Shown here piece by piece: positions 6,641-14,898 of a stretch of 64,000 bases of DNA (within the stretch, counting starts at the first letter, position 1; the number at the start of each line of letters is the position of its first letter). The stretch lies in assembly GCF_946187725.1 (NCBI RefSeq), contig NZ_CAMHSK010000014.1, forward strand, positions 1 to 64,000, written 5' to 3'. The translations under genes were made by a program, and so were the position numbers. The notes under the pieces are model-generated. The model searched no databases. It worked only from the letters and a program-made list of their open reading frames with translations, and was not told the origin of the DNA. This stretch comes from an uncultured Treponema sp. GTDB taxonomy: Bacteria > Spirochaetota > Spirochaetia > Treponematales > Treponemataceae.

Positions 6641-8476
6641 CTACATGCGATCCAGATACGGCACGAGAACCAGTCCCATTGCTTCTTTGAGCACCCGTAG
6701 CGTTGCCTTTGCGAGTGTGAGGCGGGCTTCTTTGAGCTCTTTTGTCTCGGCGCTCATAATCGGGCACTGCTGGTAGAATTTTGAGAAGAGTTTTGCGATG
6801 TCGTAGATGTAGTTTGCCATGATTGACGAGTCTTTGGCTGTTGCGGCTCTTGCTATGGTCTCCGGGTACTCGCCAAGGCGTTTTACCAGATCCCATTCTT
6901 CGCCTGCTTTGAGAAGTTTTGCTGCGTTCTCAGGACTTGCCGGGCTTGTTCCTTCGTCTGCGGCCTTTCGCAGGATTGAAGCGATGCGTGCTCCCATGTA
7001 CTGCAAATATGGGCCTGTGTTTCCGTTGAAGCTCAATGATTCTTCCGGATTGAAAACCATGTCCTTAATCGGGCTGACCTGAAGAAGATAGTAGTGGAGG
7101 GCGGCGAGTGCGACTTTTTCTGCGACCTCATCTGCGTTTCCGACTTCTTCTTCGCGGCCTTTTTCTTTGATTGCTTTGAGTGCGTCTGCGTGGAGCGAGT
7201 CAATCAAATCATCTGCGTCAACGACTGTGCCTTCGCGGCTCTTCATTCGACCGTTCGGAAGGTTTACCAGGCCGTAAGCGAGGTGATAGAGTTTGTTCGA
7301 CCAGTCAAAGCCGAGTTTTTTGAGAATATAGAAGAGGACTTTGAAATGGAAGTTCTGCTCTGTTGCGACGACGTAAACTAGCTCGTTGAAAGCCCAGTCT
7401 GAGTGGCGGCTGATTGCGGTTCCGATGTCCTGTGTGATGTAAACGGATGTTCCGTCTTTTCGGAGCAAAACCTTTTCGTGGTCTTCACCGTCTTTTCCTT
7501 TGCCGACTGCTTCTGTTACGTCAACGCGAACGCTTCCGTCCTCTGCCTTGAAGAATACGCCTTTTTCCAATCCTTTCTGGATTTCGTCCTTTCCTTTGAG
7601 GTAGGTTTCGCTTTCAAAGTAGAATTTGTCGAAGCTGACTCCCGTGCGATTGTAAGTTTCTTTTACGCCGTTGAAAGTCCAGTCGTTCATTGTCTGCCAG
7701 AGCTTTCGGGTTTCCTCATCGCCTGCTTCCCATTTTCGAAGCATTTCTTCGGCCATTTCCTGTGCCTCAGGGTGAGCTGTCTCCGGCTTGTCCTTTTCGC
7801 CCTTCAAGTAGCGGTCGAATTCAACATAGCACTGACCTACAAAGTGGTCTCCCTTCATTCCCAGACTTTCCGGTGTGTCGCCGTTTTTCTCGTGGAAGAG
7901 TTTGTATGCGAGCATTGACTTACAGATGTGGATGCCGCGGTTGTTGATAAGGTCAACTTTGCAGACCTCGGCTCCTGCCTTTTTGAGAATGCGTGAAACT
8001 GATTCACCCAAAGCGTCGTTTCGCATGTGTCCCAGATGAAGGGGCTTGTTTGTGTTGGGTGAAGAGAACTCAATCATGATTTTGCTTCCGGCAAGGTGCG
8101 GCTTTCCGTCATTGCCCAAAGTTCCGAAGTTCTCGCCCTCTGTTTCGATTTTTGTAAGGATTGACTTTACGGCACCTTTTTTGTCCATTTTGAGGTTTAC
8201 ATAAGGGCCAACAGCGAGCACTTCACCGATTCCGGCAGCTTTTCCGCTCTCGTTAATGAGCTTTGCCACTTCCTGCGCAATCTGCGGTGGTGCTAATCTG
8301 AGCGATTTCGCGAACATGAACATTGGAGAGCCGATGTCGCCCATCTCTGGATTTGGAGAAGGCTGCACGACGAGCTTTTCTGCCTGTGCTTTTTCTGCTT
8401 CAATATTTTTTTCTTCGATAATTTTATTGACTGCTTCAGCCAAAAGATTCTTAAATTCTGTCTTTACATCTGCCAT
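6641..8476 (-). CDS. argS: arginyl-tRNA synthetase
   Basis: A class I aminoacyl-tRNA synthetase of 611 residues that charges tRNA-Arg. The HIGH box appears as HLGH in NKPLHLGHMRND, the KMSKS region is the usual degenerate GRMKSREGT of ArgS, and the C-terminal anticodon-binding domain ends in MGLVLVPYLDRM. The ATG at 8476 is chosen because a TATAAT box at 8486-8491 lies 9 bases upstream; no Shine-Dalgarno sequence is present, and an upstream in-frame TTG would lie outside the transcript. Confidence 0.95.
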   Translation of the reverse strand: MADVKTEFKNLLAEAVNKIIEEKNIEAEKAQAEKLVVQPSPNPEMGDIGSPMFMFAKSLRLAPPQIAQEVAKLINESGKAAGIGEVLAVGPYVNLKMDKKGAVKSILTKIETEGENFGTLGNDGKPHLAGSKIMIEFSSPNTNKPLHLGHMRNDALGESVSRILKKAGAEVCKVDLINNRGIHICKSMLAYKLFHEKNGDTPESLGMKGDHFVGQCYVEFDRYLKGEKDKPETAHPEAQEMAEEMLRKWEAGDEETRKLWQTMNDWTFNGVKETYNRTGVSFDKFYFESETYLKGKDEIQKGLEKGVFFKAEDGSVRVDVTEAVGKGKDGEDHEKVLLRKDGTSVYITQDIGTAISRHSDWAFNELVYVVATEQNFHFKVLFYILKKLGFDWSNKLYHLAYGLVNLPNGRMKSREGTVVDADDLIDSLHADALKAIKEKGREEEVGNADEVAEKVALAALHYYLLQVSPIKDMVFNPEESLSFNGNTGPYLQYMGARIASILRKAADEGTSPASPENAAKLLKAGEEWDLVKRLGEYPETIARAATAKDSSIMANYIYDIAKLFSKFYQQCPIMSAETKELKEARLTLAKATLRVLKEAMGLVLVPYLDRM

Positions 8477-10080: not shown

Positions 10081-10545
10081 TTAGTTTACATTTGAAAGAG
10101 CGCCCGTTCCGCCGAGAACTGCTGTTACAGCACCGCCGATTGCACCTCCGACAGCGGCTCCGATTCCAGTACAAATCAAAGCTGCTCCCACGACAATTGC
10201 AGCTCCAATGGCAATTTTCTTCCAGTTGTTCTTGAACCAGCTGCCAATTCCGCCACCTGAAACCATATCAAGTTCTTTTTCGGTAAGTTCAACTGTCTCG
10301 CCTTTGTTCTGGCCGTTTACGGCAGCTTCAAACTGAGCCTGAACGAAATCCATCTGTTCCTGCAATTTTTCTACTTCAAGTTCAGGATAAAACGCGTGAA
10401 GATTTTCAAATGCTTCTTTTGGGGTTGAGGCTGTTTCTACGATTTCAGTTATTTTCTCTACATCGAATTTTTCTGATACTTTCTCGATTTCTGTCTCTGC
10501 GACACCTGCGTTTGCCAAAACTGTTTTCATCTCTGCGTTTGTCAT
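10081..10545 (-). CDS. bacteriocin-like precursor with double-glycine leader
   Basis: A 154-residue protein in two parts. Residues 1-98 are an acidic, helical leader ending ELTEKELDMVSGG, which matches the double-glycine cleavage site (G97-G98) used by C39-peptidase ABC exporters and resembles Nif11-type leaders. The predicted mature part of 56 residues starts GIGSWFKNNWKK, is cationic, and continues as a glycine/alanine zipper with repeated GxxxG and one cysteine (C125), as in pore-forming bacteriocins. No exporter, modification enzyme or immunity gene is adjacent. A GGAG lies 13 bases before the ATG. It sits between tRNA-Thr and a restriction system, in an accessory block. Killing activity is inferred. 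Confidence 0.75.
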   Translation of the reverse strand: MTNAEMKTVLANAGVAETEIEKVSEKFDVEKITEIVETASTPKEAFENLHAFYPELEVEKLQEQMDFVQAQFEAAVNGQNKGETVELTEKELDMVSGGGIGSWFKNNWKKIAIGAAIVVGAALICTGIGAAVGGAIGGAVTAVLGGTGALSNVN

Positions 10546-10612: not shown

Positions 10613-10703
10613 CCCTACAGGGATGTAGGGTAAGAGCAAAGAGAGAATTTCGTAAGAAATTCTCGTTTGAACAGGAAATACAAGGATGTATTCCCTGTTC
10701 AAA
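10613..10703 (+). repeat. three-hairpin repeat family A, copy 1
   Basis: Three successive hairpins: CCCTACA/TGTAGGG, GAGAATTTC/GAAATTCTC, and TTTGAACAGG/CCTGTTCAAA with an AATACA/TGTATT extension. Related copies are at 15060-15154 and 62632-62724. All three lie in gaps between consecutive minus-strand genes. Confidence 0.8.
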
Positions 10704-10752: not shown

Positions 10753-11754
10753 TTAAATTCTGTCGCTATAAGGCAGTGATTTTATATAATTTTCCATGAA
10801 AATGTAATCAGGCGTGCCGTCTTTTGTGGTCGGAAGTTTTAACACAGTATTTTTGATAATATCCATTTTGAACGCTCTGCCATATGAATAGCGATAACTT
10901 TCTTTTCGGAGCAATGTGACGATGAAAAGACCTGTGAATTTATTTAGCCAATCGGCTCTGATAACAACAATATGGTCTCCGCAAATGAAATCATTTTCTT
11001 GATATGAAACTGTGGCAGTAGTATCTCCAATTACGATTGCATTACCACTTTGAATGCCTGTAAGTTCTTGATTTTTGACGAAAGATTTTACACCATTTTT
11101 TTCATCGGTTCTTGTGATGTATGGAACTGAATCTTTTGAATTTGGATCGGAATTTATCAGATAGTCATCATTATAGGCTTGTGCCTTATTAATAGAAGAA
11201 ATTATATCTCCAAAGCGGAATCGTTGCCATTTGCTTGTATCGGGAGAGGCTGGTTTTTTCGTGATTTTTGTTGTAATCAGCTTGTGGTGCAATGATTTAA
11301 TGAAGCACTCCATGAAATTCCAGTCAGGTGAACCGGTGGTCGTTACAGGGAGTTTGATTTTGGATTCCTTCATTTTTTCGAGCGTCCATTTTCGCCCATA
11401 ACAGAATCTGTATTGTTCCTGCTTGATTATCGTGCATAGAAAAAGAGCGTTGTATTTGTTCATCTCCCAGCCTTTTGCATAAAGGACATTTACATCATCG
11501 CTTGCCCAAAAAGGCTCGTCTTGATGAAAGGCTTCTCCGACACTTCCGTTATAGTTTACAGTTATACAGTTTGGTTCCCAAAGCTCATTTTTTGGAATGT
11601 CAATTTTTTCGCGAATACCGTTGTTTTCGCTAATAGCTCCAAGAAAGTTCACATTTCCAGAAATCATATCTGATTTTGTGAGTCTCTTACCTTTTTGAAA
11701 GTCAAATAAATCTCCGAGAGTAAAATAGTTCCAATTTTTGACATCAAGATTCAT
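10753..11754 (-). CDS. DNA specificity subunit of BcgI-like restriction-modification system
   Basis: A 333-residue HsdS-like protein with two target-recognition halves, each opening with a similar segment (FTLGDLFDFQKGKR near residue 10; FRFGDIISSIN near residue 180) and each followed by GNA/NAIVIGD- and FFC-type conserved blocks. It should form the specificity subunit that directs the adjacent nuclease-methylase to a bipartite site. Its start overlaps the end of that gene by 11 bases. Length and pairing match BcgI B (about 341 residues) better than a type I HsdS, which is usually longer than 400. Confidence 0.87.
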   Translation of the reverse strand: MNLDVKNWNYFTLGDLFDFQKGKRLTKSDMISGNVNFLGAISENNGIREKIDIPKNELWEPNCITVNYNGSVGEAFHQDEPFWASDDVNVLYAKGWEMNKYNALFLCTIIKQEQYRFCYGRKWTLEKMKESKIKLPVTTTGSPDWNFMECFIKSLHHKLITTKITKKPASPDTSKWQRFRFGDIISSINKAQAYNDDYLINSDPNSKDSVPYITRTDEKNGVKSFVKNQELTGIQSGNAIVIGDTTATVSYQENDFICGDHIVVIRADWLNKFTGLFIVTLLRKESYRYSYGRAFKMDIIKNTVLKLPTTKDGTPDYIFMENYIKSLPYSDRI

Positions 11755-13609
11755 AAGCCGCTCCGCATTTTACTTTGTATGCCAAAAAATTATTTATCGT
11801 CTGCTGAAAGTCATCCACTGTGAGTGTCGAATAATCTGTTTTCATGTATGCTTCGCAAAGCCATTCATCTTCCCAAGTGACGCTTTTCCGTGCTGTCAAG
11901 CCATCCTCAATATCACGGTTTCGGTAGAGCGTTACCCATTTTTTCTCGATTTCTGTCCATTTGCTGAAAGCGTCGATTCGACCGAGCTTCTTTCGTTTTA
12001 CAAATCCGTCATTTTTGTAGTACCCGAAGAAAGTTTCCTGTGTGCTGTCGTGCGGAGTATGTGCTTCCCAGACCATAACGCAGACCGTTGTTCCCACCGG
12101 ATAGAAAATATCGTCGGGCATTGAGAAAACTGCTTTGAGGGTGTGATGTTTGAAAAGACGCTCGCGAGTTGTCTTGAACTTTGTGCCGATTGCACAGCTC
12201 ATCGGAACGACTACAACCCCAGTTCCACCGGGAGTGAGAATATCAAGCAGATGTTCTGTGAATTCAAGTTCTTCCTTGTCACCCTGTGAATATGGCGGAT
12301 TTATGAGACCGATGTTTATATTCTTTTTTTTGAGTTCCTGCGTGATTTTTTCGTTGAAGCAGTCACCCTTGTAGATATTCGATTTTCCGTCTTTCCGGAT
12401 AATCATGTTCGCAATTGCGAGCGTGTAAAGCCCGTCGTCAAACTCAACGCCGTACAGACCTTCTTTTCGAATTCGCTCAACTTCTTCAGGATTCGCACTC
12501 TTGAACATTCGGCTCATTGCCGTTACAAGGAACGAAGCCGAACCGCAGCAGATATCCACGACCTTGCTGTTTTTGTTTACGCCTGCCAAATCGCACATAA
12601 ACTCCGTGAGATGCTGTGGAGTAAGAACGATGCCGAGTCCGCTTCCGTCTCCGCCAGAATACTTGATGAATTCGTGGTAGAACACGCCCAAAGCGTCAAG
12701 GGTGCTGTCGGCATAATTCATCATAGGCTTGATTTTCATTTCAAGCTGCTCTATGTACCAAGTGATTGAGTTTTTGTGGCCGAGCGGAATTTCCTGAAAT
12801 TTCGTATTGTCCTGCAAGGTCTTGAAAACCTGCTTTATGTAGCTGATTCGCTCGTTTCTTATGTCGCTTTCGGCAAGAACATTTTCGATTGCCGCCTGAA
12901 TATTCTGCATGACGAGTTTGTAAGATGTGAGCGACTGGTAACTCTTACAAAAATCATCGTCATTCAATGCAATTAAAATTCCTGCGATGAAAATTGGCTT
13001 GTGAGATTCGGTGACTTTGATTTCGCGCAAGGCTTCGTGCATGATGATTGCGGTCTCACGAATCTCATCGAGCGAGTATGATTTTTTGATTTTCTTTCCG
13101 TTTATAAGCTCGATGTAGTTTTTTGGTTCAAGAATCAAATCTTGGATTTTCTTCAATTCTTGAAACGAATCAGCTCCCTTCTGCCAGTAGAAAGTGCTTG
13201 CCTTAATCTCGTTTTTCTTTGTTCCGCTCACGGCAACAGCAATTACATTGTATTCTTCTTTTAGGTGCTTTGTGTAAAAGAGAACTCCGTCTACGGCATA
13301 ATCTTTTGGCTTTGAGCAATCTTCGGACTGGTGAAATTTGACAGATTTTTTGCACTCAACCACAATGATTGTTGAGGTAGCGTCATTAAAAGTGATTACA
13401 TATTCAGGTTTTGCTTTTCCACTTCCTGTAACTGAATAATCACTCAGACTACATTCTTTTGGCTTTCCACCCATTTTTTTGAGAAGATTTTCTATTTTAT
13501 CGAGAGATTCACAATCGCCCTGTGGAAAGACATAACCGAACGAATTTTCGCCGATTGTGCATTTCATTTCGCGAAGAGTAAGACTTTCCGTGTACTGCTC
13601 GATTGCCAT
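11744..13609 (-). CDS. BcgI-like fused restriction endonuclease / N6-adenine methyltransferase
   Basis: A 621-residue polypeptide that combines cleavage and methylation. The N-terminal part shows a PD-(D/E)xK-like core, PE69 followed by IIVVECKK with E85 and K87. A helical linker follows, then the N6-adenine methylase: SAM motif VVDICCGSASF (350-360) and catalytic NPPY (437-440). Size and architecture match subunit A of type IIB enzymes such as BcgI (about 637 residues), which cut on both sides of their site. The start has GAGG 9 bases upstream and a promoter at 13627-13655. No separate HsdR is present, which supports the fused type. Confidence 0.88.
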   Translation of the reverse strand: MAIEQYTESLTLREMKCTIGENSFGYVFPQGDCESLDKIENLLKKMGGKPKECSLSDYSVTGSGKAKPEYVITFNDATSTIIVVECKKSVKFHQSEDCSKPKDYAVDGVLFYTKHLKEEYNVIAVAVSGTKKNEIKASTFYWQKGADSFQELKKIQDLILEPKNYIELINGKKIKKSYSLDEIRETAIIMHEALREIKVTESHKPIFIAGILIALNDDDFCKSYQSLTSYKLVMQNIQAAIENVLAESDIRNERISYIKQVFKTLQDNTKFQEIPLGHKNSITWYIEQLEMKIKPMMNYADSTLDALGVFYHEFIKYSGGDGSGLGIVLTPQHLTEFMCDLAGVNKNSKVVDICCGSASFLVTAMSRMFKSANPEEVERIRKEGLYGVEFDDGLYTLAIANMIIRKDGKSNIYKGDCFNEKITQELKKKNINIGLINPPYSQGDKEELEFTEHLLDILTPGGTGVVVVPMSCAIGTKFKTTRERLFKHHTLKAVFSMPDDIFYPVGTTVCVMVWEAHTPHDSTQETFFGYYKNDGFVKRKKLGRIDAFSKWTEIEKKWVTLYRNRDIEDGLTARKSVTWEDEWLCEAYMKTDYSTLTVDDFQQTINNFLAYKVKCGAAYES

Positions 13610-13872: not shown

Positions 13873-14898
13873 TTATCGCTGAATTCGTCCAGAACCGTCG
13901 CCGCCTGCGAGCTTGTTAACTTCGTCCTCAGAAACCATATTGTAGTCTCCGATGATTGAGTGCTTCAAGCAAGATGCTGCAACTGCCCAGTTGATTGAAT
14001 CCTGCGTGCTCATTCCTTTGAGCTGTGAGTGGATGAGTCCGCCGCCGAATGAGTCACCGCCACCTACGCGATCAACAATCCACATCTCGTATTTCTTTGA
14101 GAATGCGTAGTCTTTGTCGTCAACGTAGAGAAGAGCCTGCCAGTCGTTGCGGTTAGCGTTGATTGATGAGCGGAGAGTGATTGCGACTTTTTTGAAGCCG
14201 AATTTCTCTTTGAGCTGGCGAGCAACTGAAACATAACCGTCGTTGTTCAAAGTTCCCTTAGTTGTGTCAGTTCCTTCAGATTTGATTCCGAACACGTCGT
14301 TTGCGTCGTCCTCGTTAGAGATACAGACATCGACATATTTACAGATTTCTGTCATTGCTTTGCGGGCTTCGTCTTTTGTCCAGAGCTTTCCGCGGTAGTT
14401 AAGGTCACAAGAAGTTGTGATGCCCATTTCGCGAGCTGTTTTGCAAGCTTCGATACAAGCAGTTACCATGTTTGGTCCCAAAGCCGGAGTGATACCTGTG
14501 ATGTGGAACCATTTTGCGTCCTTGAGGATTTCTTTCCAGTTGAATTCTTCTGGTTTTGCGAGCTGAATTGAAGAGCCTGCTCGGTCATAGATACATTTTG
14601 AACCACGCTGAGAAGCGCCTTTCTCGTTATAGTAGATACCAACGCGCGGACCGCCACGAACGATGTACTCTGTGTGAACGCCGTATTTGCGGAGTGAGTT
14701 TACAGCTGCCTGACCGATTTCATGAGTCGGGAGTTTTGTAACGAAATATGATTCATTTCCGTAGTTTGCGAGAGAAACAGAAACATTTGCCTCACCACCA
14801 CCGAATGTTGTTGTCATTGAATCAACCTGCACGAAACGATAATAATCAGCCGGCTGAATGCGAAGCATCAATTCACCAAAAGTAACTACCTTTGCCAT
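13873..14898 (-). CDS. kdgK: 2-keto-3-deoxygluconate kinase (PfkB family)
   Basis: A 341-residue ribokinase-fold sugar kinase that phosphorylates 2-keto-3-deoxygluconate, the product of uronate catabolism, to KDPG for cleavage to pyruvate and glyceraldehyde-3-phosphate. Conserved features are the N-terminal GELMLRI, the substrate-loop FGGGEANVS near residue 32-41, and the C-terminal VDRVGGGDSFGGGLI with the catalytic aspartate. AGGAG lies 8 bases upstream and a promoter at 14932-14960. It gives the pectin theme a catabolic endpoint. The matching aldolase is not in the window. Assignment as KdgK over another PfkB sugar kinase is by overall sequence pattern. Confidence 0.85.
   Translation of the reverse strand: MAKVVTFGELMLRIQPADYYRFVQVDSMTTTFGGGEANVSVSLANYGNESYFVTKLPTHEIGQAAVNSLRKYGVHTEYIVRGGPRVGIYYNEKGASQRGSKCIYDRAGSSIQLAKPEEFNWKEILKDAKWFHITGITPALGPNMVTACIEACKTAREMGITTSCDLNYRGKLWTKDEARKAMTEICKYVDVCISNEDDANDVFGIKSEGTDTTKGTLNNDGYVSVARQLKEKFGFKKVAITLRSSINANRNDWQALLYVDDKDYAFSKKYEMWIVDRVGGGDSFGGGLIHSQLKGMSTQDSINWAVAASCLKHSIIGDYNMVSEDEVNKLAGGDGSGRIQR

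Follow-up and report, generated by a model that had tools for sequence, protein, structure and literature searches.

A conserved long-leader double-glycine peptide gene of an uncultured Treponema, predicted cargo of an unlinked NHLM-type exporter

The window analysed here is the 64,000-nucleotide stretch at positions 1 to 64,000 of contig NZ_CAMHSK010000014.1, from an uncultured gut or rumen Treponema sp. (assembly GCF_946187725.1), and it contains a gene for a small double-glycine precursor, here called P0001 (Table 1). The gene begins with ATG on the minus strand; the original prediction, made from the letters alone, had given no strand. That the reading frame is real is borne out by 69 relatives, a leader dN/dS of about 0.1 and a ribosome site. 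The proposed division into a double-glycine leader and a 56-residue core likewise agrees with the sequence and with a GG site in 66 family members. The neighbours are a tRNA-Thr gene and hsdS/hsdM-like genes, confirming that no exporter is adjacent.

Table 1. Features of the P0001 locus, in window coordinates
Feature	Coordinates	Strand	Evidence
Gene for the 154-aa precursor P0001, stop included	10081..10545	minus	ORF, translation, relatives in other genomes
Acidic leader of P0001 (residues 1-98), predicted to fold into five helices, ending in LTEKELDMVSGG	10252..10545	minus	sequence, AlphaFold2
Core of P0001 (residues 99-154), with GIGSWFKNNWKK preceding a Gly/Ala-rich hydrophobic helix	10084..10251	minus	sequence, family-wide start
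Shine-Dalgarno-like AAGGAG of P0001	10559..10564	minus	sequence
ECF-type promoter of P0001, TAGCCTT-N13-TCGTATAAA	10706..10734	minus	perfect match, also upstream of relatives
Structured 5' UTR of P0001, three hairpins (10666-10703, 10643-10664, 10613-10630)	10613..10703	minus	fold z-score

The leader has a net charge of -14, ends in ELTEKELDMVSGG and carries L-12, E-8 and L-7, the recognition consensus for the C39 peptidases of PCAT exporters as quoted in PMC6363468. An AlphaFold2 model from eight sequences contains five helices within residues 3-78 (pLDDT mostly 75-90, and about 75-90 over residues 1-70), followed by an uncertain linker and two core helices, the first (100-124) moderately confident and the second not. 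This small, helical model (mean pLDDT 68) gave a best E of 5.9 in Foldseek and Z of at most 4.5 in VIA-align.

The core, with one Cys and few Ser/Thr, lacks the Cys/Ser/Thr richness of modified peptides, as had been noted originally. The description of a cationic stretch followed by a Gly/Ala zipper stood in part: the core has a net charge of +3 and is Gly/Ala-rich and hydrophobic (maximum hydropathy 2.31), but its GxxxG spacing is not above composition (3 versus 2.6 in shuffles, p ~0.52). Over its C-terminal region P0001 shows a weak likeness, under cut-off, to the models of microcin V and class IIc bacteriocins (for the MccV model, E 5.6e-4 and 20.9 bits against a cut-off of 27). Several relatives, for example L113 and L117, do have GxxxG counts well above shuffles. 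The two paralogues at L113:4734-5782, with 10-12 GxxxG motifs in their cores against 3-5 in shuffles, are better candidates for glycine-zipper aggregation than P0001.

P0001 marks a previously undescribed family of export peptides, on which our literature search found no paper. Relatives are present in 9 of the 148 genomes of the related set, its own genome counted in; a profile search of 394 genomes of the order located the family in 16, of which 15 belong to the same genus, and 69 distinct proteins were collected. Phage and plasmid collections held no relatives at E<=1e-5. Identity to P0001 is 43-68% in other genomes and 66-69% in L054 and L055. The former is Treponema sp. UBA3813 and forms one contig with L109; the latter, one contig with L048, is a Spirochaetaceae MAG that may come from the rumen, judging by its isolate name RUG13083. 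A GG site is present in 66 of the 69 members; of these, 63 have L-12, 65 have L-7, all 66 have V/I-4, and 63 have a Trp among core residues 1-11. The core start [GS]xGSWxKKN is conserved through the family; the core C-termini diverge strongly, and many array members combine just one hydrophobic helix with a tail of hydrophilic residues. By the Nei-Gojobori method, dN/dS of P0001 against L054/L055 came to 0.07-0.13 for the leader and 0.11-0.65 for the core, with dS near saturation. These comparisons indicate that P0001 is a real, conserved gene whose close relatives are under purifying selection.

The original prediction had likened the leader to Nif11-type leaders, a view that the relatives support weakly and P0001 itself does not. 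For P0001, TIGR03798 and PF07862 both gave no match at E<=10, whereas TIGR03798 was found in 9 of 23 relatives, below its cut-off (best E 7.6e-5, at most 22.9 bits against 32.3). A profile match to the Nif11 chain 9zn4 (E 6.5e-4) was driven by the GG end, and alignment of the family profile with two genuine Nif11 precursors was confined to 16 residues at the GG site. The NHLP leader model TIGR03793 gave no match for P0001 and weak ones for 5 of the 23 relatives (lowest E 0.063). Any relation to Nif11 leaders thus appears remote and weak, and we file P0001 as neither Nif11 nor NHLP.

An unlinked C39 exporter had been predicted, and the genome proved to contain exactly one C39 peptidase hit (135 bits), on contig C5 and unlinked to P0001. 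The protein (L034:9176-11338, its C39 domain being about the first 150 residues) scores 1012 bits against TIGR03796 (cut-off 853), is flanked by matches to TIGR03797 (757 bits, cut-off 709) and TIGR03794 (271, cut-off 156), and has Gln16, Cys22, His95 and Asp111 all present in its C39 domain; by these matches, the C5 system is a complete NHLP/NHLM-type exporter (ABC1, ABC2 and HlyD). The cluster further includes a substrate-binding-type lipoprotein, a PBP4B-like hydrolase, a precursor remnant, a TolC remnant, a 72-aa NAAG peptide and an ECF sigma factor (L034:18635-19114). The remnants show decay in the linked part of the system: the precursor, of the same family as P0001, stops after 37 codons, and the TolC gene (L034:17018-18400) is a pseudogene in two frames with internal loss. 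The export system of this genome may therefore be decaying. Other TolC-like genes include two intact candidates, on contigs C10 and C1. Beyond the decayed remnant, no convincing paralogue of P0001 emerged in this genome, and P0001 is the sole intact precursor found.

In relatives, precursors and exporter stand together. The order on the L109/L054 contig is HlyD-ABC1-ABC2-lipoprotein-six tandem precursors-TolC-NAAG peptide-ECF sigma, and the L047 cluster is similar, its precursors being two, the one intact and the other partial. In L110, L111 (a different genus), L112, L113, L114/L115 and the G004/G024 arrays, an exporter stands no more than about 10 kb from the precursors; tandem arrays are frequent, with many precursors per genome and one or two exporters. 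Of the 16 family genomes, 13 encode the exporter, compared with 33 of all 394 (Fisher 4e-13, uncorrected for kinship), and co-occurrence within the genus (89 genomes) remained marked (Fisher ~8e-6). In another genome of the genus, genuine Nif11-leader precursors (L090:5915-6283 and 7851-8222; TIGR03798 over cut-off), with Gly/Cys-containing cores, adjoin a related NHLM exporter.

P0001 is also tied to the C5 cluster by its promoter. Upstream alignment revealed TTTAGCCYTT-N13-TCGTATAAATA before P0001, the decayed C5 copy, the relatives' precursors and the NAAG-peptide/ECF-sigma pair. A scan of the 3.27-Mb genome with the form TAGCCYT-N13-TCGTATAAA gave exactly three perfect matches. One precedes P0001, another the truncated precursor on C5 and the third the ECF sigma gene linked to the exporter; the exporter operon lacks this promoter in the genome. 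Across 148 genomes there were 27 matches versus 1 for the reversed control, and 9 of the 10 genomes with the promoter carry the P0001 family (Fisher 1e-12; family genomes being those of the 148-genome count plus G016 from the profile search). Only perfect matches were used, because allowing two mismatches gave 16 reversed-control matches; a fourth site, on C7 with two mismatches, was dismissed as chance, its surroundings containing two lipoprotein-like ORFs but no precursor.

The promoter also precedes Nif11-like long-leader precursors (L133-L135), another NAAG/ECF pair (L127), other types of secreted protein (L129, L136) and some loci that have no evident precursor. In L130 (G013:C3) it is directly followed by a gene for a short-leader GG peptide (LNDEVLNEVVGG, with a non-hydrophobic core), so that the regulon may export different cargo types. 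The NAAG peptide itself, of 66-80 aa and the form MNDxRLKxLFDFQKF...LSxDELxMVNAAG (L034:18404-18622 on C5; also L047, L054, L092, L112 and L127), is encoded directly before the ECF sigma gene behind the same promoter. As its end looks like a GG-type cleavage site, the peptide could be the precursor of a signal or else act as an anti-sigma peptide.

P0001 had been called an orphan, which is true of its position; since its promoter is shared with the exporter cluster, it is an orphan only physically and a member of the regulon, and its relatives lie inside exporter clusters. The unlinked location is conserved rather than a recent accident, as the L055 orthologue adjoins the same sugar kinase as that at 13873-14898 of the window, where an hsdM/hsdS-like pair stands between kinase and P0001. 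This pair (10753-13609; an hsdS-like gene of 333 aa and an N6 DNA methylase-like gene of 621 aa, named from their sequence) is absent from the L055 locus. The 5' UTR of P0001 folds far better than shuffles (z -6.65), and L054 keeps the three hairpins through paired substitutions, one being CCCTACA/TGTAGGG to CCCTGCA/TGCAGGG, with only four sequences in support. The 5' UTR matched no family in an Rfam scan, in which only tRNA exceeded the cut-off, and is possibly an RNA control element. Neither near P0001 nor between the L054 tandem paralogues was there a Shine-Dalgarno-preceded small membrane ORF of the immunity type. This is a point against a textbook bacteriocin; immunity could be encoded elsewhere.

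Based on these observations, we think it fairly probable that P0001 gives rise to an unmodified peptide that is secreted and acts on membranes, with export by the C5 system and regulation by an ECF sigma factor. The sigma factor beside the exporter would transcribe both P0001 and its own gene, a reading suggested by its apparent autoregulation; the long leader would dock on the C39 domain and be cut after Gly98, and the 56-aa cationic and hydrophobic peptide would leave the cell, probably via a TolC-like channel. Most likely, then, P0001 is cargo of the C5 exporter. Precursor anatomy, a conserved family, intact exporter genes, clustering of precursors with exporters in relatives and a shared promoter can all be read from the DNA itself, and the proposed export and regulation draw on strong comparative evidence. 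For the mature peptide, action on competitors' membranes in the manner of class II microcins is the most likely role, and the chances that it is antibacterial appear about even, judging by composition and the weak likeness to microcin V and class IIc bacteriocins.

With its leader motif, GG site and C39 exporter in the genome, P0001 has the marks of a PCAT-exported double-glycine precursor, and with relatives in or near TIGR03794/03796/03797 clusters those of an NHLM substrate, its own linked copy being decayed. Functionally, we predict a peptide of the class II microcin type that has a larger leader and leaves the cell through an NHLM exporter. P0001 shares with class II microcins (microcin V, PF17508) a GG leader, a C39 exporter with HlyD and TolC, and an unmodified hydrophobic core, and differs in its 98-aa leader, two ABC subunits, unlinked exporter and the lack, near P0001 or in the L054 array, of the adjacent immunity gene expected of that class. 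The Treponema denticola proteins TDE_0416, TDE_0422 and TDE_0424 likewise combine a GG-type signal with a nearby ABC exporter in Treponema (PMC11879956). They were rejected as relatives, with GG at residues 17-18, lengths of 167-614 aa and a different family. Supernatants of T. denticola with such secreted bacteriocin-type signal proteins did not kill (PMC11879956).

The missing immunity gene keeps two alternatives alive. Prochlorosins are lanthipeptides made by ProcM from scattered precursors with Nif11 leaders. Their layout is comparable, with many unlinked precursors served by one maturation/export system (PMC10783134), although prochlorosins are modified by ProcM and the P0001 system has no evident modification. 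By analogy, P0001 could yield a secreted signal, or a peptide for host or community interaction, that does not kill; arrays of many precursors with one or two exporters, the strongly conserved core start and the lack of immunity genes near P0001 or in the L054 array would fit. The composition is nevertheless typical of membrane-active peptides, and the core C-termini diverge strongly, so we hold this possibility to be a minor one. The other alternative is a surface aggregate like CdzC/CdzD of Caulobacter, whose Gly-rich peptides stay outside and kill or adhere by contact. Both systems pair type I export with small, hydrophobic, Gly/Ala-rich proteins and lack modifying enzymes (PMC5380434), and the GxxxG excess of L113 and L117 points the same way. 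P0001 itself lacks this Cdz hallmark, however, many array members have one hydrophobic helix and a hydrophilic tail, and no counterpart of the immunity protein CdzI, which accompanies the two-component CdzC/CdzD, was seen near P0001 or in the L054 array; an aggregate is unlikely.

A core modified before export would be expected from the general association of NHLM exporters and Nif11-like leaders with RiPPs, and P0001 shares with the NHLP/Nif11-leader systems of Haft et al. 2010 (PMC2887384) a long conserved GG leader, paralogous expansions and the exporter family. It differs in matching neither leader model, in a core that is not Cys/Ser/Thr-rich and starts with conserved instead of hypervariable residues, and in its ECF-type promoter; its genome has no YcaO and the P0001-type exporter clusters that were examined encode no modifying enzyme, so modification is improbable. 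It is just as doubtful that P0001 is a relict, be it a defunct precursor left over as its system decays or a membrane protein that stays uncleaved inside the cell: the truncated linked precursor and broken TolC are consistent with decay, but the ORF, promoter and leader motif of P0001 and the C5 exporter genes are intact, and selection against L054 and L055 is purifying.

Our literature search yielded no gut or rumen Treponema with a bacteriocin demonstrated by experiment. More speculatively, and with little confidence, we propose that host-associated Treponema possess a self-contained ECF-sigma regulon, in which scattered long-leader, unmodified membrane peptides use one NHLM exporter without dedicated immunity and the NAAG peptide is perhaps a sensing or autoinducing partner. 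An apparently orphan precursor could here be tied to an exporter and a sigma factor through a searchable promoter, and such promoter searches offer a way of listing the cargo of these systems. Our observations suggest that unmodified, microcin-like peptides, too, are carried by NHLM exporters, a group usually associated with modified ones.
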